The notes under the pieces are model-generated. The model saw only the letters and a list, made by a program, of their open reading frames with translations, did not search any database and was not told where the DNA came from. Below are positions 198-16,777 of a stretch of 64,000 bases of DNA, piece by piece. The first letter of the stretch is position 1; each line of letters begins with the position of its first letter. This DNA is from Hyphomonadaceae bacterium. Its GTDB lineage: Bacteria > Pseudomonadota > Alphaproteobacteria > Caulobacterales > Hyphomonadaceae. The position numbers and the translations under genes were made by a program. The DNA is taken from assembly GCA_022844345.1 (NCBI GenBank), contig JALHLU010000002.1, positions 1 through 64,000 on the forward strand, read 5' to 3'.

Positions 198-351
198 GGG
201 GAGTATATTGCGCTCATCCGCGGCCCGGCTGGTTCTGCGCGGCTACGTCCTACGAGTTGTGATCGCAGGGCGTTGGAAATGCGGGGGAAGTTTTTTCTGG
301 CTCCGACAGTTTCGGACAGGCTGTTTCCTACATTCGCGAAACACTAACGGG

Positions 352-470: not shown

Positions 471-555
471 AATGGTGTGGGTGCTGAGCCAAATCAAACC
501 GATGAAGGCGAGACCCGGGACCCATCGTGTGGGCTCGTCGCGGGTCGCTGGCTTG

Positions 556-1518
556 TCAGGCCAGCAGGAGCCAGCAATAGGCGGCGTAGTGGGCGAGGAG
601 GAAGAAGCCTTCGGCGCGGCTTACCCGGCCGCCTGTGTTGGCGTGGAGCAGCACAAGCAGCGTCGCAACGTAGAGCGCCGCCCAGTCGCGCGCGAGCAGG
701 TCGGCGGGAACGGCGATGGGCTGGATCAGGGCGGTGATGCCGAGGATGCCGAGTATGTTGTAGATGTTGGAGCCGATGATCGCGCCGAAGGCGACATCGG
801 AGCGGCCCTTGAGCGCGGCCATGACGGACGTGACAAGTTCGGGAAGCGACGTTCCCAGCGCGACGATGGTGAGGCCGATGATGGTCTCCGACATGCCGGC
901 GGCGAGCGCGATTGTCCTTGCGCTGTTGACGAGCAGGTCGGCGCCGAAGACGAGCATGACGAGGCCGCCGATCGCGAAGGCGGCTGATCGCCAGATGGGG
1001 GCGGGCCCGGGCTCGTGCAGTTCGACGCCGGCTTCGAGCATCTGGCCAGCGGGACTGGAGCGGCGTTCCATCATGAAGGTGAGCACGATGTAGGCGGCGA
1101 GGGCCGCGAGGAACAGGCCGGCCACGGGGCGCGAGATTTCGTCGAGGAAGATCGCCACGGCGATGAAGACGGCGGTCGCAAGGACCATGGCCCAACCGTC
1201 GCGCTGGACCGCGCGGGCGTCCACCGTAATGGGGCGGATGATGGCGACGATGGCGAAGATAAGCAGGACGTTCGAGATATTCGAGCCGACGACATTGCCG
1301 ACCGCGATGCCGGGCGAGCCGGCGAGGGCGGCGCTGATGCTGGCTGCTAGTTCCGGCGAGGATGTGCCGAAGCCGACCAGGGTGAGGCCGATCATCAGTT
1401 CCGAGACGCCGAAGCGGCGGGCGACGCCAACGGCGCCGCGGACAACGAATTCGCCGCCTATGGCCAGCAGGACGAGCCCCCCAGTGAGGGACAGGCCCAC
1501 AAGCAACCAGTTGTCCAA
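556..1518 (-). CDS. calcium/sodium antiporter, YrbG/CaCA family
   Basis: A 320-residue inner-membrane protein with about ten hydrophobic segments. It has the two internally repeated motifs that define the cation/Ca2+ exchanger superfamily. The first repeat (about residues 40-85) contains GFGTSSPELAAS and GNVVGSNISN. The second (about 220-265) contains ALGTSLPELVTS and GAIIGSNIYN. The acidic residue in each 'GTS-PE' motif is the ion-binding carboxylate in this family. The length matches the short bacterial YrbG type, so the family call is firm; the transported ions are inferred. It is divergent from the downstream Hsp70-like gene, and the 194 bases between them (1519-1712) must hold both promoters. 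Confidence 0.9.
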   Translation of the reverse strand: MDNWLLVGLSLTGGLVLLAIGGEFVVRGAVGVARRFGVSELMIGLTLVGFGTSSPELAASISAALAGSPGIAVGNVVGSNISNVLLIFAIVAIIRPITVDARAVQRDGWAMVLATAVFIAVAIFLDEISRPVAGLFLAALAAYIVLTFMMERRSSPAGQMLEAGVELHEPGPAPIWRSAAFAIGGLVMLVFGADLLVNSARTIALAAGMSETIIGLTIVALGTSLPELVTSVMAALKGRSDVAFGAIIGSNIYNILGILGITALIQPIAVPADLLARDWAALYVATLLVLLHANTGGRVSRAEGFFLLAHYAAYCWLLLA

Positions 1519-1712
1519 TGTGCGCTCCCCGCGTCTTGCAGGGTTTGCTTACGGTAAACTGGCGGTGGCGAAAAGCGGGTGGTGGCCCGGGATTTTCCAG
1601 AGAATGGCCCCGCGTTGAACCTTGACTTTATGCGAGCCGGGCACGACCAAGCGGCCCCCGCTGGTCGCATTCCGCAGGGTGGCGCGGCGCCTGGTGCGCC
1701 CGGAGTGGTGTG

Positions 1713-2996
1713 ATGTCCCTGTCGATTGGCGTCGATTTTGGTACGACGAACACCGTTGCGACCATGGTGAATGCCGCAGGGCAGGTCGAGGCGGTGCACT
1801 TCGAGCATGGGGGCGAGGCGTTTGACGCGTTCCGGTCGGTGCTGTGCTTTTCGGAGGCGGATGATGGGGCGGGGCGCGGGCCGAACATCGATGCCGGGCC
1901 ATGGGCGATCGACCGCTTTGTGGAGCTGGCGGGGGAGTGCCGTTTCATCCAGTCGTTCAAGACGTTCGCGGCGAGCGCGCATTTCACGGACACGCTGATC
2001 TACAATCGCCGCATGAAATTCGAGGACCTGCTGGCGAGCTTCCTGCGGCGGGTGCGCGTGCATGCGGGCATGACATTTCCCAAGCGGATCGTTATCGGCC
2101 GGCCGGTGAGCTTTGCGGGCGCTGATCCGGATGAGGCGCTGGCGCGCACCCGATATGAGGCGGCGTTGCGGGCGGTGGGGTTCGAGGAGATCCACCACGT
2201 CTATGAGCCGGTGGCGGCCGCCTACTTCTTTGCGCAACGGCTGAATACGGATGCGACCATTCTGGTGGCGGATTTCGGCGGCGGCACGAGCGATTTTTCG
2301 GTGGTGAGGTTTGCAAGGGGCGCTGACGGGCTGGAGTACAGGCCGCTGGCGCATACGGGCGTGGGCGTTGCGGGAGATGCGTTCGACTATCGCATTATCG
2401 ATGCGGTGGTGGCGCATGCCTTCGGCAAGGGCTCGGAGTTCATGAGTTGGGGCAAGGCGCTGCCCATTCCCAATTCGTATTTCAAGAAGTTCAGCCGCTG
2501 GAACGAGCTGTCGGTTATGCGGAACTCGCGCGATTATCGCGAGCTGCAGGATCTGGCCCGCTCCAGTCTCGATCCCGAGCGCATCCGCGCCTTTCTTGCG
2601 TTCCTGGATGCGGACGCCGGCTATGCGATGTACCGGGCGGTGTCGGCTGCGAAGACGCAGCTATCGCATGCGGATGAGGCCGTGCTGTCGCTTCATGTCG
2701 CCGGCGTGGATATTGAGCGCACCATCCTGCGCAGCGAGTTTGAGGCGTGGATCGCCCCGGAGCTTCAGGAGATCGATGGCTGCGTTGATCGTGCGTTGCG
2801 GGAGGCGGGCATCGGGGAGATGCAGATTGATCGCGTGTTCCTGACCGGCGGATCGTCCTTCGTGCCGGCGGTGCGCGCGCGGTTCGAGGACCGGTTCGGG
2901 GCGGACAAAATCGAGACGGGCGACCAGCTGGTGTCGATCGCGTATGGGCTTTCGCTCATCGGGCGGGAGCGCGATATCGGGCGGTGGGCTGTCTGA
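1713..2996 (+). CDS. Hsp70-family protein, YegD-like, nucleotide-binding domain only
   Basis: A 427-residue protein of the actin/Hsp70 ATPase fold. The phosphate-1 motif is VDFGTTNT near the N-terminus. The phosphate-2 motif is LVADFGGGTSDFSVV around residue 190. The adenosine motif FLTGGSSFVPAV is around residue 380. There is no substrate-binding domain or helical lid as in DnaK, so it resembles the stand-alone YegD-type paralogues whose clients are unknown. The ATG at 1713 directly follows an in-frame GTG at 1710; a CGGAG at 1701-1705 could serve either. It ends about 70 bases before the dusA 5' remnant, so it is the left chromosomal flank of the putative island. Confidence 0.88.
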   Translation: MSLSIGVDFGTTNTVATMVNAAGQVEAVHFEHGGEAFDAFRSVLCFSEADDGAGRGPNIDAGPWAIDRFVELAGECRFIQSFKTFAASAHFTDTLIYNRRMKFEDLLASFLRRVRVHAGMTFPKRIVIGRPVSFAGADPDEALARTRYEAALRAVGFEEIHHVYEPVAAAYFFAQRLNTDATILVADFGGGTSDFSVVRFARGADGLEYRPLAHTGVGVAGDAFDYRIIDAVVAHAFGKGSEFMSWGKALPIPNSYFKKFSRWNELSVMRNSRDYRELQDLARSSLDPERIRAFLAFLDADAGYAMYRAVSAAKTQLSHADEAVLSLHVAGVDIERTILRSEFEAWIAPELQEIDGCVDRALREAGIGEMQIDRVFLTGGSSFVPAVRARFEDRFGADKIETGDQLVSIAYGLSLIGRERDIGRWAV

Positions 2997-3023
2997 TGCG
3001 GGCGTGGGGCAAAGGGGCTTGCC

Positions 3024-3098
3024 ATGGCTGTCGCATCCGCGTTTTGGAGGCCCGTGCGCAGGTACTCCGTGGCCCCGACGATGGACTGGACTGACTGA
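3024..3098 (+). pseudogene. dusA': dusA 5'-end remnant (probable left attachment site)
   Basis: A 24-codon frame ending RRYSVAPTMDWTD and then TGA. This matches the start of the intact DusA at 14.0 kb, RRFAVAPMMDWTD. Bases 3067-3095 match 14048-14076 at 26 of 29 positions, and similarity stops just after. A GTG at 3054 behind GGAGG could be the ancestral dusA start, with the ATG at 3024 as an alternative. A broken gene start on one side and a complete gene with a replaced start on the other is what integration into the 5' end of dusA would leave. Seen: the duplicated 5' end. Inferred: that it is an att site. Confidence 0.75.
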
Positions 3099-3547
3099 AG
3101 AATTCAATCAGGGCGCGGGACGGGATTTGGTGCACTTCCGGCGCAGTCATGAGATGCGACGCGCGCTTCCGGAAGTCATCGCAAGTCGTTTCGCGCTGGG
3201 ATTTGGGAGGGCGGCCGAGCGTGTTCAGAGACTGGAATATGTTCGACAGCGGTCAGCCATTCAGCCAGCAGCGACCGCGCAGAATTGGCCCGAAGTCGGC
3301 ATTGGCCGCACGTTCCGAATACCTCAAGTATTCCTGCAAGGGCTTGGCAAGAGAACGTTTCGGATGTCCGGCGTCAGAAGCTGCAAGACTGGTTGAGGTC
3401 TTTCACCAACGGAACAAATTCGACTCATTGCGGCCCACGAGGCAGCGAAGACAAGACAAAAGTCCGGGCCGCAGTCCGCCGAGAAGCATGTCCGTCGGCG
3501 GACGCGGCTGAGGTTCTCTGCAGAGTTGGTGCTCGCTCTCGCCCAGT
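3099..3547. other. non-coding stretch, no gene recognised
   Basis: About 450 bases between the dusA remnant and the 3' end of the receptor gene. Several short frames are open on both strands, but none has a start with a ribosome-binding site or a recognisable protein. It may be degraded DNA from the left end of the island. A short inverted repeat, GTCCG-TCGG-CGGAC, near 3488-3501 lies downstream of the receptor stop and could be a weak terminator. Confidence 0.3.
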
Positions 3548-6500
3548 TCAGAACCTCTTCCTGAGATCCAGATAGACCTGCCGCCCGCGAACGTTGTGAT
3601 AGCCGGCATCGTAGCCGTTGGTCTCGTCTGCCAGCGGCGGATTTTTGTCGAACACATTGTTCAAGCCCAAGCGAATCCTCAGGCCGTCGAGCGCCCCATC
3701 CGGGTGGTCGAAGTCGTACTGAAGGTACGCGTTCGAGGTCATCCAGTCCTTGACGATGAAAGGATCGCCATTCGGGTCCAGGCCCAAGCCTGTGTCGATG
3801 AACTCGCCCGTATACTCGGTCCGGAAACCGGCGCCGAAGCCGCTGTCGTGGCGCCAGGTCAGGTTGGCGCCCCAGCGCCATTCGGGCTGGCCGTCCTGCA
3901 ATATGATGCTGCCTTCCTGCGAGACCGTGATCTCGTTGGAGATGGCGCCGGCATCGACGGCATCGCGGATCTGCTGCGAAGCCGGAGACAGGCCAATGAA
4001 ATATTTCTCCAGCTTCGTCGCATTGAGGCGGAGGCTGAAGTCGCCGACTGGCGTATCGTCAAGGTCATAATAGACCGCAAAGTCGATGCCCTCGACGTCG
4101 ACCGTTTCATTGTTGTCGTAGGTGTCGCGGATGAACAGGATCTCGCCCGCCGGGTCGAGGCCGGCCGCGTTATAGTAGGCGATCTCGTCAGCGTTGGGAT
4201 CGGCCCGCACAACGTTGGGGTTAGAGGAACCCTGCAGCCTGAGGAGATAGTCCAGGCTAATGTGGTTCTCGGCGCCAAACACGCCGACCACGTTCTCGCG
4301 GCGGATGTCCCAATAATCGACCGTGAGAGTCAGCGGGTTGAGAAAGCTCAGGAACCCGTCGAAGCCGCTTGGCTCAAAGACGATGCCGTAGGTGACGTTT
4401 GTATCGTCTTCCGGCCCGATATCATCGGCGACAGCGCGGCGTTCGATCCGCCCTTCCGTGAAGCCCGTGCAGGCGGCGAAGGTCGCGAAGGTTCCGTTGC
4501 GGAGTCCCGCCTCACATGCATAGGAATCTTCTCGGCTGTTGGACCGGTCCACGCCCTCGTTGATAACGATCAGATTGGGCGCCCGGAATCCCTGGGACCA
4601 CGCCCCACGGAACTTGATGAAGTCGAACGGCTTCCACGCTGCCGCGATGCGCGGCTTGACCCCGCTGCTTCCAAAATCCGAATACTCCTCGAACCTGGCG
4701 GCCACCTGAAAGTCGAGCGTGTCGACCAACGGGATCATCATGTCCGGACTTACGACCGGGATGGAGAATTCTGTGAACGCGGCAAGCACGTTGCGCGAGC
4801 CGCTGGAATCCGGCGTCGGGCTGGTCCCGTATACGTCGGTCTCGCTGAACTCTCCCGTGACCGCGTCCGTGAAGGTGATTGTGCCGTCGAGGCGCGGGTC
4901 GCGGTCCTCGGTATAGCTCTCGTAGCGCGCTTCAACGCCGAGCGCGAAGCCGACGTCCCCGCCCGGCAGGGAGAGCAGGTCGTTCTTTGTGATCTTGTAG
5001 TCCACGAGCGCGAGATCAGTCTCACTCTTGCGGTATACTTCGATCAGGAAGGGCGCGATGAGTTCGGCCGAGTTCGGCGTGCCGTCGCGCAGGGAGGGGT
5101 TGGCCAGATCGCCGCCGTTGAAGATGTTGTAGACATTTGGCGTCTCGTTGAAGAGGGCCTGCTGGAAGAGCGTGCGCGAGACCGAATTGTTCTCGACATC
5201 CTTGGCGCTGGCCACGTTGTAGAGCAAAGCGCTGTCCCAGTCCCAGCCAGACGAGCCGAACTCGCCGCGGGCGCCGACGAGCGCGCGGATCTGTTCGTTG
5301 CGGACGTTGATGTCCCGGAAGCCGACATCATCGAAGCGGTAGCGGCCCGCATCGGTGAAGACGGGAATCCCGCCGACGGGCACGTTTGTGAGGCCGGTCA
5401 GCCGGTTCGGGTTCGGCCTTCCATCGGAGAAATTCACCGGTCCGAACGGGTTGTAGTAGTAGCTGGCCGGGATGGAGATCTCGGTCGCGCCGATGCCGTT
5501 GCGCGGCTCGTTGGTGGAGTGCGTGTCGGCCACATAGTAGCCCAGTTCGCCGTAGAGACGGACGCCATTGTCAAAGTCGTGGTTCAAGAATGCGAAGGCG
5601 TTGAAGCGCTCGCGGTCTGAAATGATCGAGCGCTCGGTCGCGCCGTCATAGCGAAGTGCGGCGTCCTGGGTGCCGTCGTCGATGCAGATGCCTGGCACGG
5701 AGAGCGCTCCAGCTGTGGCGCCGAGACAGCCCGCGAGGGTGGAAGGCTGGATGTGGAACACGCCAGCGGCCGAGGTCAGGAATACCCCATTCCGCCGGAC
5801 GCGTGTTGCGGTCGTCGTTCGCAGAGACCACTGGCCCCATACGGACTGGGTAGCGCGGTTGTCCAGCGAGGCGTCGCCCTCGAAGGTCGTGCCCAAGGCG
5901 AATGGCCTGAGGTCCTCGCTGCGGGCGACATCGATTTCCTTGGCGAAGAGCCCGTCGCGGTTGGAGTATTCCGCTGAGAAGGTGATGTTGGTGCGGTCGT
6001 CGTTGAAGTTGTGACCCGCCTTGAGTGTCAGCGTCTGTTCGTAGAGACCGTTGCCGGTCGCCGTCAGGTACCGCGCGCCGACTTCGAGGCCTTCATAGTC
6101 GTCGTCGAGAATGGTGTTGAAGACGCCGGCAACCGCATCCGTGCCGTAGATGGCCGAGGCGCCGTCGTTCAGCACTTCAATGCGGGAAATCCCCGACACA
6201 GGCAGCGCGTTGACGTTGACCGTGGTGACCGGGGTCGAAAGCTCCGCCTGGGTCGAAGGGTGGTTCACGAACCGGCGGCCGTTAAGCAGGACCAGTGTGC
6301 CGCTCGACCCGATGGAGCGCAGGTTGATCGAGGCAACGTCCCCGCGGGCGTCGTTGGAGGTCGTGTTGTTGTCATTCCGGAACGCCACCGAGCCCTGCCC
6401 GGGTAGCGAGCGGATCAGGTCTTCGCCATCGACGCCGCCAACGGCCGCAATGTCGTCCTCGCTGACGAGCGTGATCGGCAGCGCCTCGTTGATCCGGGCT

Positions 6501-6640
6501 CCCTGGATATTCGTTCCAGTGACGACAACAACGTCCCGCGTCTCGGTTTCCGGCTCGACCTCCTGTGCGAATGCCTGGGCGCCCGTCATCGCCAGGATCG
6601 GCGCGGCCGTCAGCATCAGAAGGGTCTTGCGGCTGTTCAT
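3548..6640 (-). CDS. TonB-dependent outer-membrane receptor (large, about 1030 residues)
   Basis: The start ATG at 6640 follows an AAAGG-type ribosome-binding site. It gives a clear signal peptide (MNSRKTLLMLTAAPILAM, cleaved near AFAQ). A TonB-box-like segment DVVVVTGTN follows, then a plug domain with the motifs LRSIGSSGTLVLLNGRR and EVLNDGASAIYGTDAVAG. A long beta-barrel then ends in aromatic Phe (YLDLRKRF), the usual outer-membrane insertion signal. Acidic, Asn/Gly-rich loops and the large size suit uptake of a big or complex ligand; the ligand cannot be told from sequence. It is downstream of, and on the same strand as, the exported lyase and hydrolase genes, separated by 279 bases, so it may have its own promoter. 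Confidence 0.92.
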   Translation of the reverse strand: MNSRKTLLMLTAAPILAMTGAQAFAQEVEPETETRDVVVVTGTNIQGARINEALPITLVSEDDIAAVGGVDGEDLIRSLPGQGSVAFRNDNNTTSNDARGDVASINLRSIGSSGTLVLLNGRRFVNHPSTQAELSTPVTTVNVNALPVSGISRIEVLNDGASAIYGTDAVAGVFNTILDDDYEGLEVGARYLTATGNGLYEQTLTLKAGHNFNDDRTNITFSAEYSNRDGLFAKEIDVARSEDLRPFALGTTFEGDASLDNRATQSVWGQWSLRTTTATRVRRNGVFLTSAAGVFHIQPSTLAGCLGATAGALSVPGICIDDGTQDAALRYDGATERSIISDRERFNAFAFLNHDFDNGVRLYGELGYYVADTHSTNEPRNGIGATEISIPASYYYNPFGPVNFSDGRPNPNRLTGLTNVPVGGIPVFTDAGRYRFDDVGFRDINVRNEQIRALVGARGEFGSSGWDWDSALLYNVASAKDVENNSVSRTLFQQALFNETPNVYNIFNGGDLANPSLRDGTPNSAELIAPFLIEVYRKSETDLALVDYKITKNDLLSLPGGDVGFALGVEARYESYTEDRDPRLDGTITFTDAVTGEFSETDVYGTSPTPDSSGSRNVLAAFTEFSIPVVSPDMMIPLVDTLDFQVAARFEEYSDFGSSGVKPRIAAAWKPFDFIKFRGAWSQGFRAPNLIVINEGVDRSNSREDSYACEAGLRNGTFATFAACTGFTEGRIERRAVADDIGPEDDTNVTYGIVFEPSGFDGFLSFLNPLTLTVDYWDIRRENVVGVFGAENHISLDYLLRLQGSSNPNVVRADPNADEIAYYNAAGLDPAGEILFIRDTYDNNETVDVEGIDFAVYYDLDDTPVGDFSLRLNATKLEKYFIGLSPASQQIRDAVDAGAISNEITVSQEGSIILQDGQPEWRWGANLTWRHDSGFGAGFRTEYTGEFIDTGLGLDPNGDPFIVKDWMTSNAYLQYDFDHPDGALDGLRIRLGLNNVFDKNPPLADETNGYDAGYHNVRGRQVYLDLRKRF

Positions 6641-6919
6641 TGTCTCGTACCTTTTTTCCGTCCCGACGTGTCGCACCCAGCGCGGATGCGGTCACGCGAA
6701 ACGAGGTTTCGCCATGGGTGCGGATGGCCGCCCGTGAAAGGGCCTACGGCTAAGAGGGTTTAAGTTTGATTCCCGCCGCCCACCGCGCGTTGCTGAGTAA
6801 GTTGAAAGCGCGCGCGTTTGTCTACATTTATCGGACGATTCCGGTTGTTCTGGACCCCATTGTGGCTTGCGTGCTTCAATTTGGAAGCTCGCAATTCGCC
6901 TCCCCAAGGTCAGCCTTCA

Positions 6920-8341
6920 TCAGTTCGCCAGTTTGTCGTTGCCTCGCGCGATCCGAATAGCTGCGACGGTCTGGTCGACCTGCTCGCCGGCAAGACCCAG
7001 ATATGTCGTCGGATCCAGCAGCGAATCGATCTGGTCCCCGAGCAGCGGACCAATGGCCGGGTCGGCGAGCAGCGCGGCCCGGAACGAAGTCCCCCCCTCC
7101 GCGGCAATGGCCGCCGCCACGCGCACATGCTCCTCGGCGCGCTCACGGCCGATGTCGTTGGACAGGTGAAGGACGATGCGCTGGGACATGATCAGGCCGT
7201 CAGTGCGGCCGAGGTTGGCTCGCATCATCGCCTTGTTGATCTCCAGGCGCTGGAGCAGAACAGAGGTGTCGGACAGCATGTCGGATGCGGCGATCGTGAT
7301 CTCCTCGACAACCGTGTTGGGACGCGAGGTGTTGTCCCGCTCAAAAGCGTTCACCACGTCGTCGAGCAGAACCTCGGCGAGGCGCGGGATAGTCCGGCCG
7401 TGATGGATCAGGGCCTCCGAGCGGCTGGGGTTGGCCTTGTGTGGCATCGTGCTGCTGCCCACGGCTGTCTCCGGCCGGCCCTCCGACACTTCGTCGATGT
7501 CCGTCATCTGCAGACGGAATATCTCCTCGCCGATCGCCGCATTGGACTTCGCGATCAGCGCCAGGACGAGCGCATACTCAGCATAGACGTCGCGGGCGCC
7601 GTGCCAGTCCGCAGGATCGGGCTCCGCCAAGCCAAGTGATCTTGCCACGCGGCGCTCGATGTCGGCGCCCTCGGGCCCAAGACCGAGGTGGGTGCCGACC
7701 GCCCCCTTCAGCACGCCAAGCCGCTCTATGCGGGCGGCGACCTCCTCCAGGCGTTCAATGTTGCGGCGGTTCACCGAGGCCCAAACCGCGACCTTCTTGC
7801 CGAACGTGATGGGCAGCGCGTGCTGGCCCAGCGTGCGACCGATCATCGGCGTGTCACGGTGGGCCTCGGCAAGCGACAGCAGCTGGTCCTCGATCGCGCG
7901 CATTTCGCGGATGAGATGACGGATAGAGACCCGTATCTGAAGGGTCAGAACCGTGTCGTAGACGTCCACGGTGGTGACGCCGTAGTGCACGTAGTCAGCC
8001 GCCGTCTTCGACATCGAGCGCTTCCACACGTTCAGGATCGCGACCATGCGATGTCGCACCTGCGCGTATTCGCGGCGGACCTCCTCGATCGGGGTGTAGC
8101 GGATGTTCGCCTTGTCCATGATCTCGCGAGCGGCGGCGTCCGGAATGACGCCTTCGGCGGCTTGTGCAGCAGCGATCGCGGCTTCGACCTCCAGCACAAG
8201 CTGGTTCTGATGCTCCGGAGTGAACAGGTCTTCCACCGATTGCGGCGGCGTCTGCGCGGCCGCAACATGTGCCCCGAACAGCATCAGGATGCTGGCCAGA
8301 AAACCTGACGCTCGCATCAATTTTTCCGGGCGCATTCGCAC
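6920..8341 (-). CDS. exported lyase of the fumarase/adenylosuccinate lyase superfamily
   Basis: A 473-residue member of the superfamily that makes or breaks C-N or C-O bonds by anti-elimination to give fumarate-like products. The signature loop SSTMPHKANPSRSEA is present around residue 285. A TADYVHYGVTTVD segment near residue 110 matches the substrate-binding region of adenylosuccinate lyase and PcaB-like cycloisomerases. Unusually, it starts with a signal peptide (RASGFLASILMLFGAHVAAAQ), so it should act in the periplasm or outside; most relatives are cytoplasmic. The start is taken as GTG 8341, seven bases after GGGAGG. The upstream hydrolase gene overlaps it by 25 bases, so the two are probably co-translated. 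The substrate is unknown. Confidence 0.85.
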   Translation of the reverse strand: MRMRPEKLMRASGFLASILMLFGAHVAAAQTPPQSVEDLFTPEHQNQLVLEVEAAIAAAQAAEGVIPDAAAREIMDKANIRYTPIEEVRREYAQVRHRMVAILNVWKRSMSKTAADYVHYGVTTVDVYDTVLTLQIRVSIRHLIREMRAIEDQLLSLAEAHRDTPMIGRTLGQHALPITFGKKVAVWASVNRRNIERLEEVAARIERLGVLKGAVGTHLGLGPEGADIERRVARSLGLAEPDPADWHGARDVYAEYALVLALIAKSNAAIGEEIFRLQMTDIDEVSEGRPETAVGSSTMPHKANPSRSEALIHHGRTIPRLAEVLLDDVVNAFERDNTSRPNTVVEEITIAASDMLSDTSVLLQRLEINKAMMRANLGRTDGLIMSQRIVLHLSNDIGRERAEEHVRVAAAIAAEGGTSFRAALLADPAIGPLLGDQIDSLLDPTTYLGLAGEQVDQTVAAIRIARGNDKLAN

Positions 8342-9333
8342 GATCCATCCTCCCTGTGGCAGCCTTGGCGGCTGGCGTCGTGGCCGCGGATCAGAGCTGC
8401 GGCCGCCGACGCCATCAGGGCGTTGCTGTGATGCGCGCCCGGTACAGTGAGTTGCCGCCAGCCGAATGCCACGCCAAGCGCCGCCGCTTGATTCTCAGCA
8501 GCGCTGAAGAACGTCTGACCGCGAGCAAAGCGGTGACGGCCCTGCATCATCGCTTCTGGCGTGCGCCGAAGATTGGGGTCAGCCTCGTCGATATCCTTGT
8601 CGCCGAGCAGAACCACGACGTTCTTCTGCAGCGCACAGTCAAGACGAGCCCCGTCCAGCGTCGACTCTGCAAGCCCATAAGGAAACGCGGTTCCAAAGTC
8701 CGGCATGGTGTACCAGCCCGCGTTGGCGATGATGAACAGATCGGCGCGCGTGTCCGCCTTGAAGTAAAGGTAGCGGTGGACGAACTGGGCGCCAGCGGAA
8801 TGTCCAAAAAGCACATAGGACGTCTGGGCGCCGCCCATCCGGTTCACCGCCTCGGCGACCAACGGATCGATGGCGGAAAAGGACCACAACCTCTCGTCGA
8901 CCGGCGCGCCGGTCTCTGCATCGCGGACGTTCCCGAAATTGTAACCGGCGGCGTTTGGAAAGTCCGCATCAGAAAAGGTTGGCGCGAGGATGATCAGATC
9001 GTGCTCTCGGGCGATCTCTATCCATTCGTCACGATACCGGTCGCCATCCCGATTGACGCCGTGCATGACCACGACAACCGGCAAGCCGGCGAGAGGTTCG
9101 TCCTCCGGCGCGTAGGTCCAGACCGGTATCGGTGGACCCGCCCAGTCGCGAAAGACGAACTGGCCCGCACCCCGGGCGAGCTCGTGCGGCGCCGAAACTT
9201 CTTGCGAAACGGACGGGTAGGGGGAGCTCTGACACGCAGCCGCCAGCGCGATCGACAACCCGGCGCCCACCAGCGCCGCGAAAGCGCGCGCGACGGGGGA
9301 GATCGCGCCGGGCGTATCGGCGCGCGCTGGCAA
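8317..9333 (-). CDS. exported alpha/beta hydrolase (esterase/PHB-depolymerase-like), probable lipoprotein
   Basis: A 338-residue protein whose N-terminus is hydrophobic and ends at LSIALAAAC, which could be a lipobox (the -3 position is Ala, so not ideal). The alpha/beta-hydrolase core shows VVVVMHGVNRDG (oxyanion region, about residue 87), the nucleophile elbow FGHSAGA (about 175), a candidate Asp in LLGDKDIDEAD, and a catalytic His in VPGAHHSNAL. The first possible start is TTG 9333; GTG 9270 would give a shorter lipoprotein signal, and neither has a clear ribosome-binding site. It overlaps the exported lyase gene, which suggests the two act on the same imported or extracellular compound. 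An ester or lactone substrate is likely but unproven. Confidence 0.78.
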   Translation of the reverse strand: MPARADTPGAISPVARAFAALVGAGLSIALAAACQSSPYPSVSQEVSAPHELARGAGQFVFRDWAGPPIPVWTYAPEDEPLAGLPVVVVMHGVNRDGDRYRDEWIEIAREHDLIILAPTFSDADFPNAAGYNFGNVRDAETGAPVDERLWSFSAIDPLVAEAVNRMGGAQTSYVLFGHSAGAQFVHRYLYFKADTRADLFIIANAGWYTMPDFGTAFPYGLAESTLDGARLDCALQKNVVVLLGDKDIDEADPNLRRTPEAMMQGRHRFARGQTFFSAAENQAAALGVAFGWRQLTVPGAHHSNALMASAAAALIRGHDASRQGCHREDGSCECARKN

Positions 9334-9540
9334 CAGGTGCGTTGCGCGGTCAGGTCTGGGCGAAGTCAGGGTGGTTGCTCCGGCAAGGTTCGCGGCGTTG
9401 CTGTCAATGTCGTCATCAACGCGGATCGAATGTCAATCGGCGCGCAAAGTTGGCTCTGACGCGCTCTCGACAATGGCCGCCGTGCACCGGCCCGCCCGGA
9501 TCAGTCTCTGCAACAAGTCGAGCATGCCTCGATCGTACAT

Positions 9541-9708
9541 TTACCGCCTGATCCTGTTGCGCCGGATGATCTGCTTCTCGGCCTGGCCATTCGACCCAGT
9601 TAGAGTGATGTCCGCTTTGATCGCGATCTTGTCCTTCGCGACGCTGCGGGCATAGGAAGTGATGCAGCTTGTGGCCGCGGCGGCTATCCAGTCGCGAGTG
9701 TCCGGCAT
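9541..9708 (-). CDS. hypothetical small open frame, possibly a gene fragment
   Basis: A 55-codon frame from ATG 9708 to TAA 9541, beginning MPDTRDWIAAAATS and ending in basic residues IIRRNRIRR. The same frame is open further upstream to 9843, with no start codon, and runs through the 130-base repeat at 9722-9850. Residue composition looks protein-like (alternating charged and hydrophobic), but no ribosome-binding site is evident and I recognise no family. It lies in the 564-base gap between the hydrolase and the ABC exporter (9334-9897), where nothing else can be supported. Best read as a remnant of a longer gene; a functional small protein is less likely. Confidence 0.2.
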   Translation of the reverse strand: MPDTRDWIAAAATSCITSYARSVAKDKIAIKADITLTGSNGQAEKQIIRRNRIRR

Positions 9709-9721
9709 TGGCGAGAGGTGG

Positions 9722-9850
9722 CCGGATCGATCTATGGGATCGACTGTCCGTTTAGCGCGATTGCGGTCGTAGTAACAATCGTCCCAGCTGCGCCGCTCAC
9801 AAAGAGCTTCGCGAAATGCGGTGAAGCGCGAGGTTTGCGCGGCCTATGGG
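9722..9850. repeat. 130-bp direct repeat, left copy
   Basis: This stretch matches 13816-13946 in the same orientation over its whole length. By eye there are about a dozen substitutions and one 2-base gap, so identity is near 90 percent. Both copies end at the same point, GCGCGGCCTATGGG. The pair brackets the ABC exporter and SRPBCC genes. No shared reading frame shows mainly silent changes, so there is no sign that the repeat is kept for a protein. Confidence 0.85.
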
Positions 9851-9897
9851 GCGGATCAAGTACCAAGCCTGGCCAGCAGAATCCGGACCTCCGCAGC

Positions 9898-10596
9898 TTA
9901 GTTTGTCTTGTTCCGCATTCCGCTGTCGAACTGGCCGTCGACCAGGGTGATGCGGCGCGTGCAGCGCGAGGCAACCTGCTCGTCATGGGTGCAAATGAGG
10001 AATGTCGTCCCGTCCTCGCGGTTGATCTCACGCATGAGTGCGAGGACTTGATCGGCTGACGCCCTGTCCAGACTGCCTGTAGGCTCGTCGGCCAGAACAA
10101 GCTCTGGGTGGTTCATCAAGGCTCGCGCGATCGCGACCCGCTGCTTCTGGCCTCCCGAAAGACGAGCAGCCGGGAAATTCATCCGGTCCGAGAGTCCGAC
10201 ACGTGCAAGAAGTTCAGATGCTCGCTGACGGATGGCCGAGGTAATGCCGCCGCCTGCCGCTGCAGCAGGGAAGCTGACATTCTCCAACGCGGTGAAATCG
10301 GGCAGCAAATTGTGGAACTGGAAGATGAAGCCAAGGCGCTTGTTGCGAAAGAGAGAGCTCTTGGTGTCGGAGAGGGTGTCGACGCGCTCGCCTCCAATCG
10401 TGATGATGCCCGCAGTGGGGCGCAAAAGGAGCCCGACTATGGATAGCAGCGTCGACTTTCCCGACCCCGAAGCGCCAAGAAGGGCCACCAGTTCTCCCGG
10501 GTCAAGCGTGACGTCGACGCCGAGCAGGACGCGCGTAAACTCATCGCCATTCCGGAATGTCATGACGATGCCTCGTGCATCCAGAACTGCGGTCAT
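9898..10596 (-). CDS. ABC transporter ATP-binding protein, MacB/LolD type
   Basis: A 232-residue ATPase of the lipoprotein-release/macrolide-export class. It has the Walker A motif [14 protein letters not shown] (about residue 40), a Q-loop in FIFQFHNLL, the ABC signature [17 protein letters not shown] (about 140) and the Walker B motif [13 protein letters not shown]. The D-loop (GSLD) and H-loop His (LICTHD) follow. The start ATG at 10596 overlaps the stop of the permease gene by four bases (ATGA), so translation is coupled. With the permease and membrane-fusion protein it should form a tripartite exporter moving a substrate from the inner membrane or periplasm outward. The substrate is unknown. 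Confidence 0.93.
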
Positions 10597-11798
10597 TGCT
10601 GGATCGCCTCCAGAGCATCGAGGCGGGCAGCCGACCGGGCCGGTATGACGGAGGCGAGGACGGCGCCGGCCGTTGTGAGGAGGAACACGAGCGCATAGCC
10701 GCCCTCCGCCGGCGCAATCGGCAGGGCAAGCGCACCGTCGGGCTTGGTGAAGGTCGCCAGCCAGCTGCAGAGACCATAGCCGGCGAGGCAGCCCAGCGAA
10801 GCGCCAACTATACCGATCAGCAGGCCCTGCATCACGAAAACCGAAGCGATGAACAGGCGGGAAACGCCGAAGGCGCGCATGATGCCGATCTCGCTCCGGC
10901 GGCGGTTGGCCGACAGGGAGAGCGCACTTGCGATGCCAATAAGGACAGAGATCAGCGAGAAGATCTGAATCAGTGTTCCAGTCTGCCCCTGTGCTGTGAG
11001 CGCATCCGCCAGGCTGGAGTTCCTGTCCTGCCACGGTGTCGCGCGCAGTCCGGTAGCCCCGCTCACGAAGTTTGCGAACGCGCGCGCCTGGCCTGTGTCC
11101 TTCAGCTTGATCTCGATATTGGTCACGCCCGACGGGAGGAGAAACAGCGGGCGTGCCGTCTCAAGCGAGACATACGCTGCGCGTTCATCCAGACTCTGTA
11201 TGCCGGACCTGAAGATGCCCTCGACGACAAGCAGGCGATCGACGCCGCGATCGGTCCTGAACAATACCGGCTGGCCAACCGAAAGTCCGATTGTCTCCGC
11301 CAGGCGGACGCCGATCAGAATGCCGTTGGCATTGAGACGGGCGTCGCCCACGATGATCTCCCGGCTGACGGGGGAAATGGCGTCGAGATTTTTCGGGTCG
11401 CTCGCGGTTACGGCCACTGGCGCCGCCGCTTCTCCTCTCACAAGCACGGCGCTGCCTGTAATCTGGGGGCTTATAGCTGTAACTTCGGCTTGGCTTTCCA
11501 GTAGCGCGACTGTCGCCGCCCAAGTCCTGATCTGCTTTCGCTGAAGCATCGACACAAGCGCGACGGATTCGGTGTCGTAGTCAGAACCCGGCAGCACGCG
11601 CGCGACGCGGTCGGCAGGCTCAAGCGACACATGCGCGCTCTTGGCCGTAACGTCGTCCGTCAATCTGACCGCAAGGCCCTGGATCAAAGCGGTGATGAAC
11701 ACGAACGCCGTGACGCCGAGCGCAACGCCTGCGATCAGCAGAGCTGTTTGCCAGGGATTGGATCGGAGGTAACGGCGCGCGACAAGGAAAGCGAACAA
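10593..11798 (-). CDS. ABC transporter permease, FtsX/MacB-like
   Basis: A 401-residue permease with one N-terminal membrane segment (SNPWQTALLIAGVALGVTAF) and a large periplasmic domain. Three C-terminal membrane segments follow (about residues 265-390), with the conserved cytoplasmic RRRSEIGIMRAFG motif that contacts the ATPase. It ends in VIPARSAARLDALEAIQ, typical of FtsX-domain permeases. The start is taken as TTG 11798, just after the stop of the upstream adaptor gene; an in-frame extension into that gene also exists but would be hydrophilic and unlikely. The permease probably works as a dimer. The gene is the middle of a three-gene operon: adaptor, permease, ATPase. Confidence 0.9.
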   Translation of the reverse strand: MFAFLVARRYLRSNPWQTALLIAGVALGVTAFVFITALIQGLAVRLTDDVTAKSAHVSLEPADRVARVLPGSDYDTESVALVSMLQRKQIRTWAATVALLESQAEVTAISPQITGSAVLVRGEAAAPVAVTASDPKNLDAISPVSREIIVGDARLNANGILIGVRLAETIGLSVGQPVLFRTDRGVDRLLVVEGIFRSGIQSLDERAAYVSLETARPLFLLPSGVTNIEIKLKDTGQARAFANFVSGATGLRATPWQDRNSSLADALTAQGQTGTLIQIFSLISVLIGIASALSLSANRRRSEIGIMRAFGVSRLFIASVFVMQGLLIGIVGASLGCLAGYGLCSWLATFTKPDGALALPIAPAEGGYALVFLLTTAGAVLASVIPARSAARLDALEAIQQ

Positions 11799-11800
11799 GC

Positions 11801-12988
11801 CTAGTCTCCCGGGATCGAGGCAGGAGCCTGAGTTTCGCGCGGGCGTATCCGGGCGGAAGCGCGCGTCTGGCCGGGCGTCAGTACGACCCTGTCGCCAGCC
11901 TTTGCTCCGGCTGTGATGATGGCGTTGAGGGATGGCCATGAGTCGAGCTTGACCGGCCTTGCGGTAATTGTCCCATCTTCGCTGACGACGTAGACGCGCG
12001 GGTCCGTGCCTGCGTCGATAATCGCCTGCCGCGGAACGACGAGGGCATTCGCGCGGACACCGAGGACGATGGTGACGTCGACGGTCCTTCCTGGGGGGAG
12101 GGAGATGCTCGTATCTGGCAGGAGCTTGATCGACCGTCCGCCGGTGGCGGGGTCGACGCGGGGCGATATCTCCGCGATGCGAGCTGAAAAGATGACGTCC
12201 GATCCGGACGGCGCAGCGCGCGCGGCCATGCCGGGCCGCAAATCATCGGCATAGGCCTCGTCCACCTCGACTTCTATTTCACGTGCATCTGACGAACCCA
12301 GCTGAAACAGTGTCGTGGCAGCCGTTATGACTTGGCCGGCGTCAACCGGTCGCAACAGGACCTCACCCGCCATCGGAGCCCGAACGGTGAACTCACCCAA
12401 TCGAGCTGCTGCCGCGCGTCGATCTGAGGTAGCTGCCGCCAATGCGGCTTGGGCGGATCCAGCAGCAGCGCGCGCGTTGTCTAGCGCCGCAGGTGAGGCG
12501 AAGCCCTTTGCCGCGAGCGTATCCGTGCGATTTAACGCCAATTGAACGCGGGCAAGCTCGACTCGCGCAGCTTGTTCGCGTGCCTCCAAGGCATTCGCCT
12601 CGGCAGCTTCGATATCCGACCGGATCACAGCGAGAGGAGCGCCCTTCGCGACTATGTCGCCTTCATCATGCAACAGTTGAGCAATCTGGCCCGCGTTCTG
12701 CGATCTAACATCGAGTGTATTCCGGGACTGCACGCGGCCGACGACGGACAATGCGATTTCAACGGATCGTGGCGCGAGCGTGATCACCGTGATCTCGGCT
12801 GGCTGCAGAAGCAGCCAGCTCGTGACAATGACCAGGCCAGCACCGACAACAGCCGCTACCAGGAGCCCCGGCTTTTTCCCTGGCTTCTTTGGCGTTTCGA
12901 CAGTCTCTGCGTTCTTCACGCTGGACAGGTCGCGCGCGTGCGCCAAACTATGCACAGAAGTGCCGGTAGTGCTCGACGCATCATCCAT
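11801..12988 (-). CDS. periplasmic adaptor (membrane-fusion protein), MacA/HlyD-like
   Basis: A 395-residue protein with a cytoplasmic N-terminus and one membrane anchor (GLLVAAVVGAGLVIVTSWLL, about residues 40-60). A lipoyl-like half-motif RVQSRNTLDVRSQNAGQI precedes a long alpha-helical hairpin rich in Ala, Arg and Glu (about 110-195). A second lipoyl half (FTVRAPMAGEVLLRPVDAGQVI) and a beta-barrel domain follow. This is the architecture of adaptors that link an inner-membrane pump to an outer-membrane channel. It is first in the operon with the FtsX-like permease and ATPase. No outer-membrane TolC-type gene is nearby, so the exporter must use one encoded elsewhere, if any. Confidence 0.9.
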   Translation of the reverse strand: MDDASSTTGTSVHSLAHARDLSSVKNAETVETPKKPGKKPGLLVAAVVGAGLVIVTSWLLLQPAEITVITLAPRSVEIALSVVGRVQSRNTLDVRSQNAGQIAQLLHDEGDIVAKGAPLAVIRSDIEAAEANALEAREQAARVELARVQLALNRTDTLAAKGFASPAALDNARAAAGSAQAALAAATSDRRAAAARLGEFTVRAPMAGEVLLRPVDAGQVITAATTLFQLGSSDAREIEVEVDEAYADDLRPGMAARAAPSGSDVIFSARIAEISPRVDPATGGRSIKLLPDTSISLPPGRTVDVTIVLGVRANALVVPRQAIIDAGTDPRVYVVSEDGTITARPVKLDSWPSLNAIITAGAKAGDRVVLTPGQTRASARIRPRETQAPASIPGD

Positions 12989-13339
12989 CTGGTGTCACAC
13001 GGGGGCAGCATCCGCGCGTCAGAGACAGGCGGACCGGTCAGGCAGTAACGCCGCGATCCCGCAAAAGGTCCGAAGATATTTGGTCTATCGTACTGTCTTC
13101 GTCGGCTTGTTGGTAGTTTCCGAGGGCCGGCGATTACCCGCCTGGCATCCGGAATGGGGACATACCCCAGCTGACGAGCGACATCGCCGTGGGCAAGAAA
13201 GTGGCTGGCTCGGCATTCCTGGCCCAAAGTCGTCGCTCGCAACTGGAGCTGAACGATTTGGGTATTGGAGGTCTCAATGCTCCATCTTGGCGCTTTCGCG
13301 GGGGCCACATAGATACTCGCATGAAGTTCGAGAGACTCG
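12989..13339. other. intergenic stretch, no gene recognised
   Basis: About 350 bases between the divergent adaptor and SRPBCC genes. It must contain both promoters, but I could not pick convincing -35/-10 pairs. Open frames here lack ribosome-binding sites and known motifs. It may include decayed island DNA. Confidence 0.3.
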
Positions 13340-13789
13340 ATGGGACGAAAACACACCATATCGGAAGTCTACCCGGTGAGCGCTCAAGTGCTTTGGGACG
13401 ACATCCTGGACCCGAACGCACTAGCTGAGTCCATGCAGGGATCGCTTACTTACTCCGGCCTGCCCAAGGAGCCAGTGTTTGAGGGGCAGCGCATAGTCGT
13501 GTCGCTAAAGCGCTGGGGTTGGTTTCCAATGGGACGGTGGACGATGGACGTGGTCAGGCGTGACGATGATAGACGCATTCTGGAAAGCTGTGAGTTTGGA
13601 GGCTTGGTCCGCAAGTACCAGCATCGCCTGGAAGTTGAACCTCTGAACGATGGTGAAGCGCGCTATACCGACTATCTGGATCTGGACGCTGGCATTTTTA
13701 CGGACCTGATGTTTCCGACGTTTGTCTCGATGTATGAGAAGAGGCATCAGCAACGGCGGAAGCGGCTGCTGGCTTCTGAACGCGGTTGA
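13340..13789 (+). CDS. SRPBCC-fold protein (START/polyketide cyclase-like)
   Basis: A 149-residue protein with the pattern of the helix-grip fold: an opening strand with EVYPVSAQVLWDDILDP, a central block of strands (IVVSLKRWGWFPMGRWTMDVV, ILESCEFGG) and a long C-terminal helix (FPTFVSMYEKRHQQRRKRLL). Such proteins bind hydrophobic ligands in a deep cavity; a few are enzymes. Nothing identifies the ligand. A GAGAG precedes the ATG at 13340. It is the last coding gene of the putative island, in front of the right-hand 130-bp repeat, and transcribed towards dusA. Confidence 0.7.
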   Translation: MGRKHTISEVYPVSAQVLWDDILDPNALAESMQGSLTYSGLPKEPVFEGQRIVVSLKRWGWFPMGRWTMDVVRRDDDRRILESCEFGGLVRKYQHRLEVEPLNDGEARYTDYLDLDAGIFTDLMFPTFVSMYEKRHQQRRKRLLASERG

Positions 13790-13815
13790 AATTTCCTGCT
13801 TCCGGCGAGAACCAA

Positions 13816-13946
13816 CCGGATCGATCTACGGGATCGACTGTCCGCTTAGCGCGCGATTGCGGTCGTTGTAACAACCCTCCCAGCTGCGCCGGTCACAACG
13901 AGATTGGCGAAAAGCGGTGAAGCGCGAGGTTTGCGCGGCCTATGGG
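13816..13946. repeat. 130-bp direct repeat, right copy
   Basis: Right partner of the repeat at 9722-9850, same orientation, with about a dozen substitutions and two extra bases. It ends about 75 bases before the dusA start, so it sits at the right-hand end of the putative island. The matching left copy is internal, next to the end of the ABC operon. This could mean two related elements inserted one after the other, or a duplication that captured the exporter module. Confidence 0.85.
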
Positions 13947-14022
13947 ATTGATCTAGTTGAGGTGCGTTCCAGTCGGTCCAATGTGATCGTGGATGCGCGT
14001 CCGTCCACAAAAGTCAGTTACA

Positions 14023-15024
14023 ATGAACAAGATAGACCGACGTTTTGCCGTCGCCCCGATGATGGACTGGACCGACCGGAATTGCCGGGCGTTTCATCGG
14101 CATCTGTCGGCGCGTGCGCTCCTGTACACCGAGATGGTGACGGCGGATGCGGTTATCCATGGCGATCGCGAGCGGCTGCTGGGGTTCGACGAGATCGAGC
14201 AGCCGGTGGCGTTGCAGCTGGGCGGGTCGGAGCCGGACAAGCTGGCGCGGGCGGCGCGGATTGGCGCGGACTATGGATATTGCGAGATCAATCTCAATGT
14301 CGGGTGCCCGTCAGAGCGGGTGCAGTCGGGGGCGTTTGGCGCGTGCCTGATGCGCGAGGCGGATCTTGTGGCCGAGTGTCTTGCGGCGATGCGGGCGGTG
14401 GTGAGTGTGCCGGTGACGGTCAAGCATCGGCTGGGCGTGGATGATGATGATCCGCGCGATCGGCTGTTCCCGTTCGTCGAGACGCTGGCGAAGGCGGGGA
14501 CGACGACGTTTGTGGTCCATGCGCGGAAGGCGTTGCTGAAGGGGCTGTCGCCGAAGGAGAACCGGGAGATCCCGCCGCTCGACTATGAGATCGTCGCCGA
14601 ACTGAAGCGGATGTGGCCGCAGCTGGAGATCATCCTCAATGGCGGGATTGCGGACATGGCGACGTGCGAGCGGGAGCTCAAGCGCGTCGATGGCGTGATG
14701 CTGGGGCGGGCGGCGTATCATGATCCGGCGCTGCTGCTGCAGGTCGACGCCAAGCTGTTCGGCGCGGGACAGGCGTATGCGAGCGCGGAGGATGCGGCTT
14801 ATGCGTTCCGGCCGTGGATCGAGAAGCGGCTGGCGCAGGGCGTGGGGCTGCACTCCATCTCGCGGCACATGCTGGGGCTGTTCCACGGCAAGCCGGGTGC
14901 GCGGCTGTGGCGGCGCGTGCTGTCGGAGAAGGCGCCGGGAGCGCGGGGTGTTTCGGCGCTGGCGGTTTATGATGAGGCGCTGGCGGCGGTGACGAGCCGG
15001 GCGGGGACGCTGGTGCGGGGTTGA
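14023..15024 (+). CDS. dusA: tRNA-dihydrouridine synthase A
   Basis: A 333-residue flavoprotein that reduces uridine in the tRNA D-loop (positions 20/20a in the DusA class) using FMN and NADPH. The N-terminus RRFAVAPMMDWTDRNCR is diagnostic. The catalytic Cys is in EINLNVGCPSERVQSGAFGACLM (about residue 97). FMN-phosphate binding is suggested by FVVHARKA and ILNGGIAD, followed by DGVMLGRAAYHDP. The start ATG 14023 lies directly before the region duplicated at 3.07 kb. The first seven codons and the promoter may therefore be supplied by the island, not the ancestral gene. The gene itself looks intact over full length. Confidence 0.95.
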   Translation: MNKIDRRFAVAPMMDWTDRNCRAFHRHLSARALLYTEMVTADAVIHGDRERLLGFDEIEQPVALQLGGSEPDKLARAARIGADYGYCEINLNVGCPSERVQSGAFGACLMREADLVAECLAAMRAVVSVPVTVKHRLGVDDDDPRDRLFPFVETLAKAGTTTFVVHARKALLKGLSPKENREIPPLDYEIVAELKRMWPQLEIILNGGIADMATCERELKRVDGVMLGRAAYHDPALLLQVDAKLFGAGQAYASAEDAAYAFRPWIEKRLAQGVGLHSISRHMLGLFHGKPGARLWRRVLSEKAPGARGVSALAVYDEALAAVTSRAGTLVRG

Positions 15025-15148
15025 GGCGTATGAATGACTCTGCGCCCCAAGACGCGAGCGTCAGCTTCTACGACCGCCAGATAAGCTGAAATGGCGAGAT
15101 CATGGACTAGGGAGCTGGCCAGCCGCGCCGCATGGCATTTCGTAATCT

Positions 15149-15685
15149 GTGCGCGAGCAGAGCCGACTAGTGAGCCGGCCGAAGAGGTGGACCAAAATAC
15201 GGCTTAGCGCTATTTCTCGATGTCTCTCGGAAAGCAGGTCTCGCTTGAAAAGCCTGATAAATCGATGGCGTGCGACGCGGGCAGAGCGGCTTTGGCTGGA
15301 ATATGTAAGGCTATGCGCTGTTGGAGATCGCGAAGAAGCTCATCGCGTGTTGATGAAGATTGAGGTGGGGGTTAGAGGCGCTCTGCTTTGGCGAGTGGGA
15401 TACATTGCGGAATGTGGATTTCGGCAACGAGATCAGGATGTAGTCGACGCATTTGCGGACCTGGAACAGTCCCAAGTTGACTTGTTGGATGACACCGATT
15501 TTTACCTTTATGCATACGCGAAGTGGCGTCGAGGTTTTGCCATGAAGCGCTTGACCGGTGAGGCTCCGTCTGAAGATGGGCTAGATAGGGACATCGAGAG
15601 GATAAATCTTTCCCGTGTTCCGCCGATAATCTATCATTTGTATCCGCTGCCAATTCACCCGGATTGGTCGAGCAAATACGAGTAA
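15149..15685 (+). CDS. hypothetical protein
   Basis: A frame of up to 178 residues from GTG 15149, with later possible starts at GTG 15170 and TTG 15244. The part from about residue 35 looks like a real soluble protein: a helix-rich, charged sequence with LWLEYVRLCAVGDREEAHRV and FYLYAYAKWRRGF. This may be a single TPR-like helical pair. It ends PLPIHPDWSSKYE. Its base composition appears less GC-rich than neighbouring genes, suggesting recent acquisition. It lies just after dusA on the same strand. I recognise no family. Confidence 0.5.
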   Translation: MREQSRLVSRPKRWTKIRLSAISRCLSESRSRLKSLINRWRATRAERLWLEYVRLCAVGDREEAHRVLMKIEVGVRGALLWRVGYIAECGFRQRDQDVVDAFADLEQSQVDLLDDTDFYLYAYAKWRRGFAMKRLTGEAPSEDGLDRDIERINLSRVPPIIYHLYPLPIHPDWSSKYE

Positions 15686-15700
15686 GTCATCCGGCTTTTA

Positions 15701-15719
15701 GCTGGCGGGATTCGCCAGC
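15701..15719. terminator. hairpin between convergent genes
   Basis: A perfect 7-bp stem (GCTGGCG / CGCCAGC) with a 5-base loop sits between the end of the hypothetical gene (15685, plus strand) and the end of the protease gene (15781, minus strand). It is not followed by a good T-run on either strand, so it is at best a weak or Rho-assisted bidirectional terminator. Confidence 0.35.
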
Positions 15720-15780
15720 CTGCCAAGGTCGCATGCGATGTTCGAGAAAATCCGTACACGGCGCTTTATCAAGCGCGCGA

Positions 15781-16305
15781 TCACTCGTGGATGATGATCG
15801 CGTTCGGTGTGACGGCCCAGCTGTCGAGGCGGTTGAAGAAGCTCATACCGAGGAGGGAGTATTCGAGTCCATTCTCGATCACGACGGCGGAGACTTCCTC
15901 CATTTCAATGCCGTCGATCGACATGTCATTGATGATGGCGCTGGAGCCCTTGGTGCGGCCGGAGGCGGTGCTGACGTTGACGTTGCGCTGGAGGTTGTCG
16001 AGGTCGAGGCCGATGCGGCGGGCGTCGCGCTTGTTGAGGCTGACGAGGCTGGCGCCGGTATCGACCAGGAACTTCACCGCGACGCCGTTGACGCGGGCGG
16101 TGGCCCAGTAGTGGCCGTCGCTCTCCTTGCGAATGGAGGCAGTGCGGATCTGGCTGGAGGTGACCTGGACGGGGCGCATTTCCGATTCCGCGGCCTCGAC
16201 GAGGGCGGGCTTGGCTTCGGTGTCGCTGATCATGGTTTCGCGCAGGGCGACGAGGCCCAGGGCGGCGGCGCAGAACAGCGCAAGACCAGGTAGGATCGCC
16301 TTCAT
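15781..16305 (-). CDS. retropepsin-like aspartic protease, membrane-anchored (TIGR02281-type)
   Basis: A 174-residue protein with one N-terminal membrane segment (AILPGLALFCAAALGLVAL) and a retroviral-type aspartyl protease domain. The catalytic motif is FLVDTGASLVSL (about residue 90), and the family's second conserved motif is LLGMSFFNRLDS near the C-terminus. Active enzymes of this fold are dimers, each giving one Asp. The domain should face the periplasm. Proteins of this type are widespread in alphaproteobacteria with unknown targets. ATG 16305 is preferred over an upstream start at 16329 because it begins the hydrophobic anchor directly. Confidence 0.85.
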   Translation of the reverse strand: MKAILPGLALFCAAALGLVALRETMISDTEAKPALVEAAESEMRPVQVTSSQIRTASIRKESDGHYWATARVNGVAVKFLVDTGASLVSLNKRDARRIGLDLDNLQRNVNVSTASGRTKGSSAIINDMSIDGIEMEEVSAVVIENGLEYSLLGMSFFNRLDSWAVTPNAIIIHE

Positions 16306-16405
16306 CGCTGCAGCTTGCGTCCTTGCCACATACGTTACGGGTCCTGCTTAGCAGAAATCTGTTCAGCAAAGAACAAGCCGCGTGCAGCGGAGTTCCGGAT
16401 AGCGC

Positions 16406-16600
16406 TCAGCCGAGCTTGCCGGCGGCCTTGAGGGCGTCGATGCGGGAGGGCAGGAGGGCCATGACCTGGTCGCGCTCGGCGTCGGAAAACTTCGCCCAGC
16501 GCGCGATTTCGCCCAGCGTGCGGCCGCAGCCGAGGCAGTTGTTGGTCTGGCCGTCGACGACGCAGACCTTCACGCAGGGGGTCTTTATGGGCTGGTGCAT
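16406..16600 (-). CDS. DUF1289 small Cys-rich protein
   Basis: A 64-residue protein with the spacing typical of DUF1289: TPCVKVCVVDGQTNNCLGCGRTLGEIARW, that is C-x3-C-x8-C-x2-C (the motif is given in two pieces in the literature and is probably metal-binding). The conserved EIARW follows, then a helical tail ending AAGKLG. The function is unknown; zinc or Fe-S binding is an inference from the four cysteines. It starts at ATG 16600, and the upstream 177 bases separate it from the divergent acyl-CoA dehydrogenase gene. Confidence 0.85.
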   Translation of the reverse strand: MHQPIKTPCVKVCVVDGQTNNCLGCGRTLGEIARWAKFSDAERDQVMALLPSRIDALKAAGKLG

Positions 16601-16777
16601 GGGTTGTTTATACAGGGCTTCCCGCGGCGTGGGCAGCCTTCCCCAGCGGCAATGCGACCTAGCGTCCAAGGGCCGAAAAGCCTTGACGTACCTCGCGTAA
16701 ACCAGAGCATGGGGTGATGCGTATGCAATCGCTGAGCGCCTTACGTTAACGGAAACTGCTGATTCCCGGAGCCGACC

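Follow-up and report, generated by a model that had tools for sequence, protein, structure and literature searches.

The question raised by this locus is what lies between an Hsp70-like gene and the present start of dusA, and how it came to be there. The DNA analysed, referred to here as the window, is a stretch of 64,000 nucleotides from a Hyphomonadaceae bacterium (assembly GCA_022844345.1, contig JALHLU010000002.1, positions 1 to 64,000), and about 11 kb of it separate the two genes. We think that this interval is likely to represent an island, now decayed and composite, that integrated into the 5' end of dusA, and two islands have probably contributed to it. In what follows, compared genomes are numbered G, contigs C and loci L. 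The features that bear on the ends of the element are:

3054-3098, plus strand: what remains of the original dusA start (VRRYSVAPTMDWTD and a stop codon), the putative left attachment site, with repeat core 3067-3095; its counterpart in the alignment with L001 is the start of an uninterrupted dusA
3127-3147, plus strand: arm-like site of the island's left end; G010:C32 has 19 of its 21 bases, equally far from the core
13804-14047, plus strand: island right end, providing the region upstream of dusA and its new start codon (14023); it has an internal copy in the window and a 72% match over 185 bases in G014:C149
14048-14076, plus strand: putative right attachment site (repeat core) within dusA, placed by the repeat match and by alignment with the empty site
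14023-15024, plus strand: dusA with apparently island-derived N-terminus MNKIDRRF, identified with NCBIfam DusA

The direct repeats at 3067-3095 and 14048-14076, whose starts are separated by 10,981 bases, are identical in 26 of 29 positions. An earlier note on this DNA had singled out this pair, and it was recovered by our search of both strands, in which no third copy with up to three mismatches was present in the window; 100 dinucleotide shuffles of the window gave no match to the repeat. The same note read both copies as VAP-MDWTD, and the shared dusA-start reading holds, although the left copy has APTM rather than APMM. The left repeat begins 70 bases 3' of the Hsp70-like gene and, as had been claimed, stops at once, its frame running for 14 codons from GTG at 3054 to TGA at 3096-3098 (V-R-R-Y-S-V-A-P-T-M-D-W-T-D-stop), whereas the right copy lies within a full dusA that is open throughout and scores above both NCBIfam DusA cut-offs.

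What the site looked like without the interval can be seen in a relative. Relatives of DusA were taken from the best 80 loci in a scan of the genome collection, and the closest among them was L001, from UBA7672 (Hyphomonadaceae), at 93% for DusA and 91% for Hsp70. In L001, Hsp70 ends at 9943 and, after 51 bases, dusA starts at 9995 reading MHRFSVAPMMDWTD; the earlier note had predicted such an arrangement, with Hsp70 directly before dusA and an N-terminus near MRRYSVAPMMDWTD. The window's left flank aligns with L001 up to the core and its right flank from the core on, so that the empty site and both junctions place the insertion in the conserved 5' region of dusA. The dusA starts themselves differ, being MNKIDRRF in the window, MHRFS in the sister L001 and VRRYS in the left stub. 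The proposal that the present start (MNKIDRR) came from the island is borne out, as L001 starts differently and the right-end sequence recurs elsewhere in the genus. Judging from a nonsynonymous divergence (dN) of 0.046 against a synonymous divergence (dS) of 0.30, measured against the sister from the core on, dusA remains under purifying selection behind its borrowed start. The island may also be driving dusA in this genome, supplying both promoter and N-terminus, as a Vibrio island was shown experimentally to do in Escherichia coli (PMC8409611). A sigma-70-like promoter was not found by consensus in 13750-14100, the consensus being little informative in this group. Beyond dusA, the interval to the next conserved gene (15025-15780) holds about 750 extra bases with a 178-residue open reading frame (ORF) of 52% GC (guanine plus cytosine) that lacks a Pfam match; in L001, dusA and the same next gene lie end to end.

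Relatives indicate that dusA is a recurrent target. In the loci listed, the DusA N-termini diverge as far as (V/I/T)AP and are similar beyond it, which is expected if islands repeatedly replace the start. An integrase relative lies directly upstream of dusA in at least 15 of the best 80 loci; among these, one integrase is a 142-residue fragment and another is truncated by a contig end, and the count is a lower bound, since some loci hold little upstream sequence. These putative dusA-associated integrases match PF00589 and stand where the published ones sit. Within the genus, a DusA match of at least 63% was present in 13 of 15 genomes. An integrase stands beside dusA in three of these 13 (G009, G014 and G010, the last cut by a contig end), an N-terminal integrase relic in G011 (G011:C36) and a transposase-like ORF, named by eye, in G013; in G005, the contig ends inside dusA. 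No integrase was found beside dusA in the other seven of the 13, which include the window's genome and the empty site. Because L002 appears to be the contig that also represents G009, the 80-locus and genus counts overlap.

The left end of the element retains a further mark. A stretch shared by the window and G010:C32 starts 31 bases after the core and contains two imperfect copies of a TGGTGCA-like unit, which also occurs between dusA and the integrase in G010:C22. The match was equalled by none of 1000 shuffles and none of 1000 random window segments, and the site is single in the window even at up to four mismatches; with up to two mismatches, it was absent from the 2,570,104 positions of the best 80 loci on both strands. 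We regard 3127-3147 as a putative integrase arm site on the basis of these comparisons. The empty site and the arm-like site led us to reject simple duplication of the dusA start as an explanation. Frames that resemble a dusA start and continue across a core into non-dusA sequence also occur in G010:C32, G012:C143 and G014:C149. In the first of these (L242, 7228-7642), an N-terminal integrase relic stands beside the dusA-start fragment and an island left end; this junction lies away from the genome's dusA and is a second decayed dusA island junction. In the second (L243, 60-6196), large ORFs resembling polyketide or nonribosomal synthases by eye end just before a dusA-type junction, and these biosynthetic genes are possibly dusA-island cargo. 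An altered form of the core, searched as an exact pattern (APMM[DE]GAD-like), was present once each in five of 398 genomes, and the reversed control gave no match among the matches listed. All five altered cores end a dusA-start-like frame, with repeat-like sequence (by eye) within about 60 bases 3'. G101, one of the five, also carries the best match to the lyase described below, but on another contig.

The right end links the element to other islands and to its own interior. The match in G014:C149 extends into the core and includes an in-frame start codon (MYELDRRFAVAPM); beyond it comes not DusA but a left end with repeats and then an AbiEi/AbiEii pair, and the sequence therefore marks the right end of dusA islands. 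At this locus (L162, 605-2598), the right end of one island is joined via the core to the left end of another; the dusA of G014 is on a different contig from L162, with its own integrase. The window carries a second, shortened copy of the right end between two groups of genes, and the interior of the element can be read as follows:

3548-6676, minus strand: cargo A, TonB-dependent receptor (PF00593, PF07715)
6920-8341, minus strand: cargo A, lyase from the adenylosuccinate lyase superfamily, its start resembling a signal peptide by eye (PF00206, PF10397; below NCBIfam equivalog cut-offs)
8317-9333, minus strand: cargo A, hydrolase-like protein, its start resembling that of a lipoprotein by eye (weak NCBIfam PHA depolymerase-domain match, below cut-off; beside the TonB gene in relatives)
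9710-9861, plus strand: shortened copy of the right-end sequence, matching 13804-13957; probable former right end of island A
9898-10602, minus strand: cargo B, ABC exporter ATPase, LolD/MacB-like (PF00005)
10593-11939, minus strand: cargo B, FtsX/MacB-type permease (PF02687, PF12704)
11801-12988, minus strand: cargo B, HlyD/RND-type periplasmic adaptor (PF13437; TIGR01730 above cut-off)
13340-13789, plus strand: cargo B, SRPBCC-like small protein (PF10604, E 0.0015, below its cut-off)

The internal copy is 88.7% identical to the right end over 142 columns and 86.4% over 154, and would most simply be the former right end of the first island. A model of the right-end sequence run on the 398 genomes gave three strong matches, which are the copies used to build it, and 13 weak matches (E 0.003-0.01), of which only that of G003 lies at dusA; the others were treated as chance.

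Neither of the patterns that the earlier note had named as contrary to an acquired cargo appeared, namely the cargo lying between the two genes in close relatives without the left dusA fragment, or a cargo phylogeny like that of the core genome: cargo homologues are rare in congeners and lie at other loci, with phylogeny judged by presence, absence and identity alone. The lyase (E 1e-90 or better) occurs in 20 of the 398 genomes including the window's, and its best outside match (75%) is in G101, which belongs to another genus; among the 12 congeners listed, to which G009 and G012 do not belong, only G010 has it (47%), at another locus. The permease (E 1e-60) occurs in 30 of the 398 genomes, again including the window's, and among the 12 congeners listed only in G011 (86%), where the exporter is on contig C277 and dusA on C36. 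The association of TonB receptor, lyase and hydrolase extends across several families of the order: in the seven lyase relatives whose surroundings could be read, the same stretch holds a TonB homologue in all seven and the hydrolase in six. Two neighbouring ORFs tested there (G124, G230; L211, L216) are sodium/dicarboxylate-type symporters, and no symporter is annotated in the window copy of cargo A. It is plausible that cargo A serves the uptake and cleavage of a substrate that would release a dicarboxylate such as fumarate.

The statement that no integrase is left held up. The dusA-associated integrases of two relatives matched nothing in the window better than E = 0.3, a search in which faint or very short relics could have escaped. 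The host genome, 99.96% complete in 18 contigs, encodes seven PF00589 recombinases, none of them on C2, the window's contig, and its best match to a dusA-associated integrase reaches 33%, over the catalytic part. Among the annotated window genes there is no recombinase or transfer family, relaxase or mating-pair gene. Pfam at E up to 1 was empty for eight leftover ORFs (at the left end, around the internal repeat, next to the SRPBCC gene and 3' of dusA), and eight window proteins matched no phage structural or integration family in PHROGs, in which a relative's integrase run alongside did match integrases. No tRNA was found in the window and no Rfam family in 1-20000.

From these observations we propose the following history. 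As the repeats and the sister's empty site show, an element inserted at the conserved APMMDWTD codons; it reduced the old dusA start to a 14-codon stub and placed its own right end before dusA. The recombinase was presumably a dusA-associated tyrosine integrase, because members of this family adjoin dusA in relatives and an arm-like site persists at the left end. Related islands A (TonB receptor, lyase, hydrolase) and B (ABC exporter, adaptor, SRPBCC-like protein) would then have accreted in tandem, and deletion of the internal attachment site would have fused them, leaving the copy at 9710-9861. Finally, the integrase, which the searches found neither in the element nor in the host genome, would have been lost at some stage, and the element would now be movable only by an integrase from outside, as for a cis-mobilizable element (CIME). 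The island reading of the earlier note is supported; it missed that at least two islands have probably accreted, as well as the arm-like left site and the recurrence of the right-end sequence elsewhere in the genus.

Several observations weigh against this history. Hsp70 stands directly before dusA in one relative only. Eight further congeners carry an Hsp70 orthologue (78-85%); in seven of these, dusA lies on a different contig and in one it was not found, and in the six of the eight with sequence beyond the gene, neither dusA nor its core lies 3' of Hsp70. The window's left core keeps DWTD and is not of the altered type seen at other junctions, and the arm repeats of G014 and G012 are unconvincing against the window's left end, being equalled by 44 and 5 of 1000 random segments, respectively. 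The G011 exporter, at 84-86% against 78-81% for that genome's core genes, is at least as similar as they are, and part B could be an old gene set inherited within the genus and lost elsewhere. The cargo is also not set apart by GC, with lower values only for the SRPBCC gene (0.56) and for the ORF that follows dusA (0.52). This last point, and the fact that dusA neighbours differ among all readable congeners, would suit a segmental duplication of the dusA start with a rearrangement enclosing unrelated genes and no island at all. We consider that highly improbable: to either side of the core, the window's flank matches the corresponding side of the sister's uninterrupted site, the position of the core is that of the published dusA target, and an arm-like site is present at the left end.

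The step from one island to two rests on the internal repeat and on G014, and the internal copy lacks a core and has no second left end after it. With just two core sites in the window and right-end copies that are each other's closest match, the interval might instead be one dusA island with an internal duplication or carried repeat at 9710-9861 and an integrase that was simply deleted. We think this unlikely, given that in G014 this sequence forms the right end of an island, that tandem islands at dusA are published (PMC8409611), and that the genes of A and B stand apart elsewhere, none of seven lyase stretches holding all three exporter genes and none of five exporter stretches holding the lyase. 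The integrase raises a separate question, as right ends of this type occur without an adjoining integrase in the window (two copies), at G014:C149 and at the dusA of G003, which would fit a non-autonomous island that never had an integrase of its own and relied on that of another dusA island acting in trans. Such an origin seems improbable to us: the integrase may have had another position in the element, or a single loss in a common ancestor may have removed it, integrase decay is documented in G011 and G010:C32, and the G003 right-end match is weak (E 0.001). Equally doubtful is the wider proposition that integrase-less dusA islands form a lineage in this genus, that the integrases of other dusA islands move them in trans, and that their common right end supplies the upstream region and start of dusA.

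The decayed composite island can be compared with three described systems. With the dusA-specific islands (Farrugia et al. 2015, PMC4482086), it shares the 5' dusA target, imperfect direct repeats at both ends, an island-supplied 5' end of dusA and variable cargo, and its 11 kb fall near the small end of the published range of 4.8-185 kb. All 94 islands in that survey, which started from the integrase, carry an integrase, whereas the element here is without one in the window and has a best host-genome match of 33%; because this defining feature is absent, it is not a full dusA-specific island. The Vibrio mobilizable islands that target dusA (PMC8409611) offer one reported tandem pair at dusA, but no integrase, directionality factor or transfer gene was recognised in the window element. 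As in a CIME (PMC5704250), integration and transfer genes are absent, presumably through loss, both putative attachment sites are kept, and the route would be decay with tandem accretion; however, a CIME is defined by descent from a conjugative or mobilizable element, and no such ancestor is identifiable here. The element is likely a decayed relative of dusA-specific islands, something like a CIME, rather than a full member of their group. Islands at dusA, replaced dusA starts and tandem accretion are already published, and the window element is a decayed case of known biology whose scars are unusually clear. No description of non-autonomous dusA islands, or of dusA islands in Caulobacterales, was found in the open-licence literature, which is weak evidence that none has been published.

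The element shows what a dusA island may look like after decay, with two scars, a borrowed start under selection and cargo that is now fixed. Surveys based on the integrase are blind to such elements, and if a lineage of integrase-less islands does exist, dusA islands may be under-counted. Hypervariable DusA N-termini, arm-like left ends and altered cores are signatures by which they could be searched for without an integrase.

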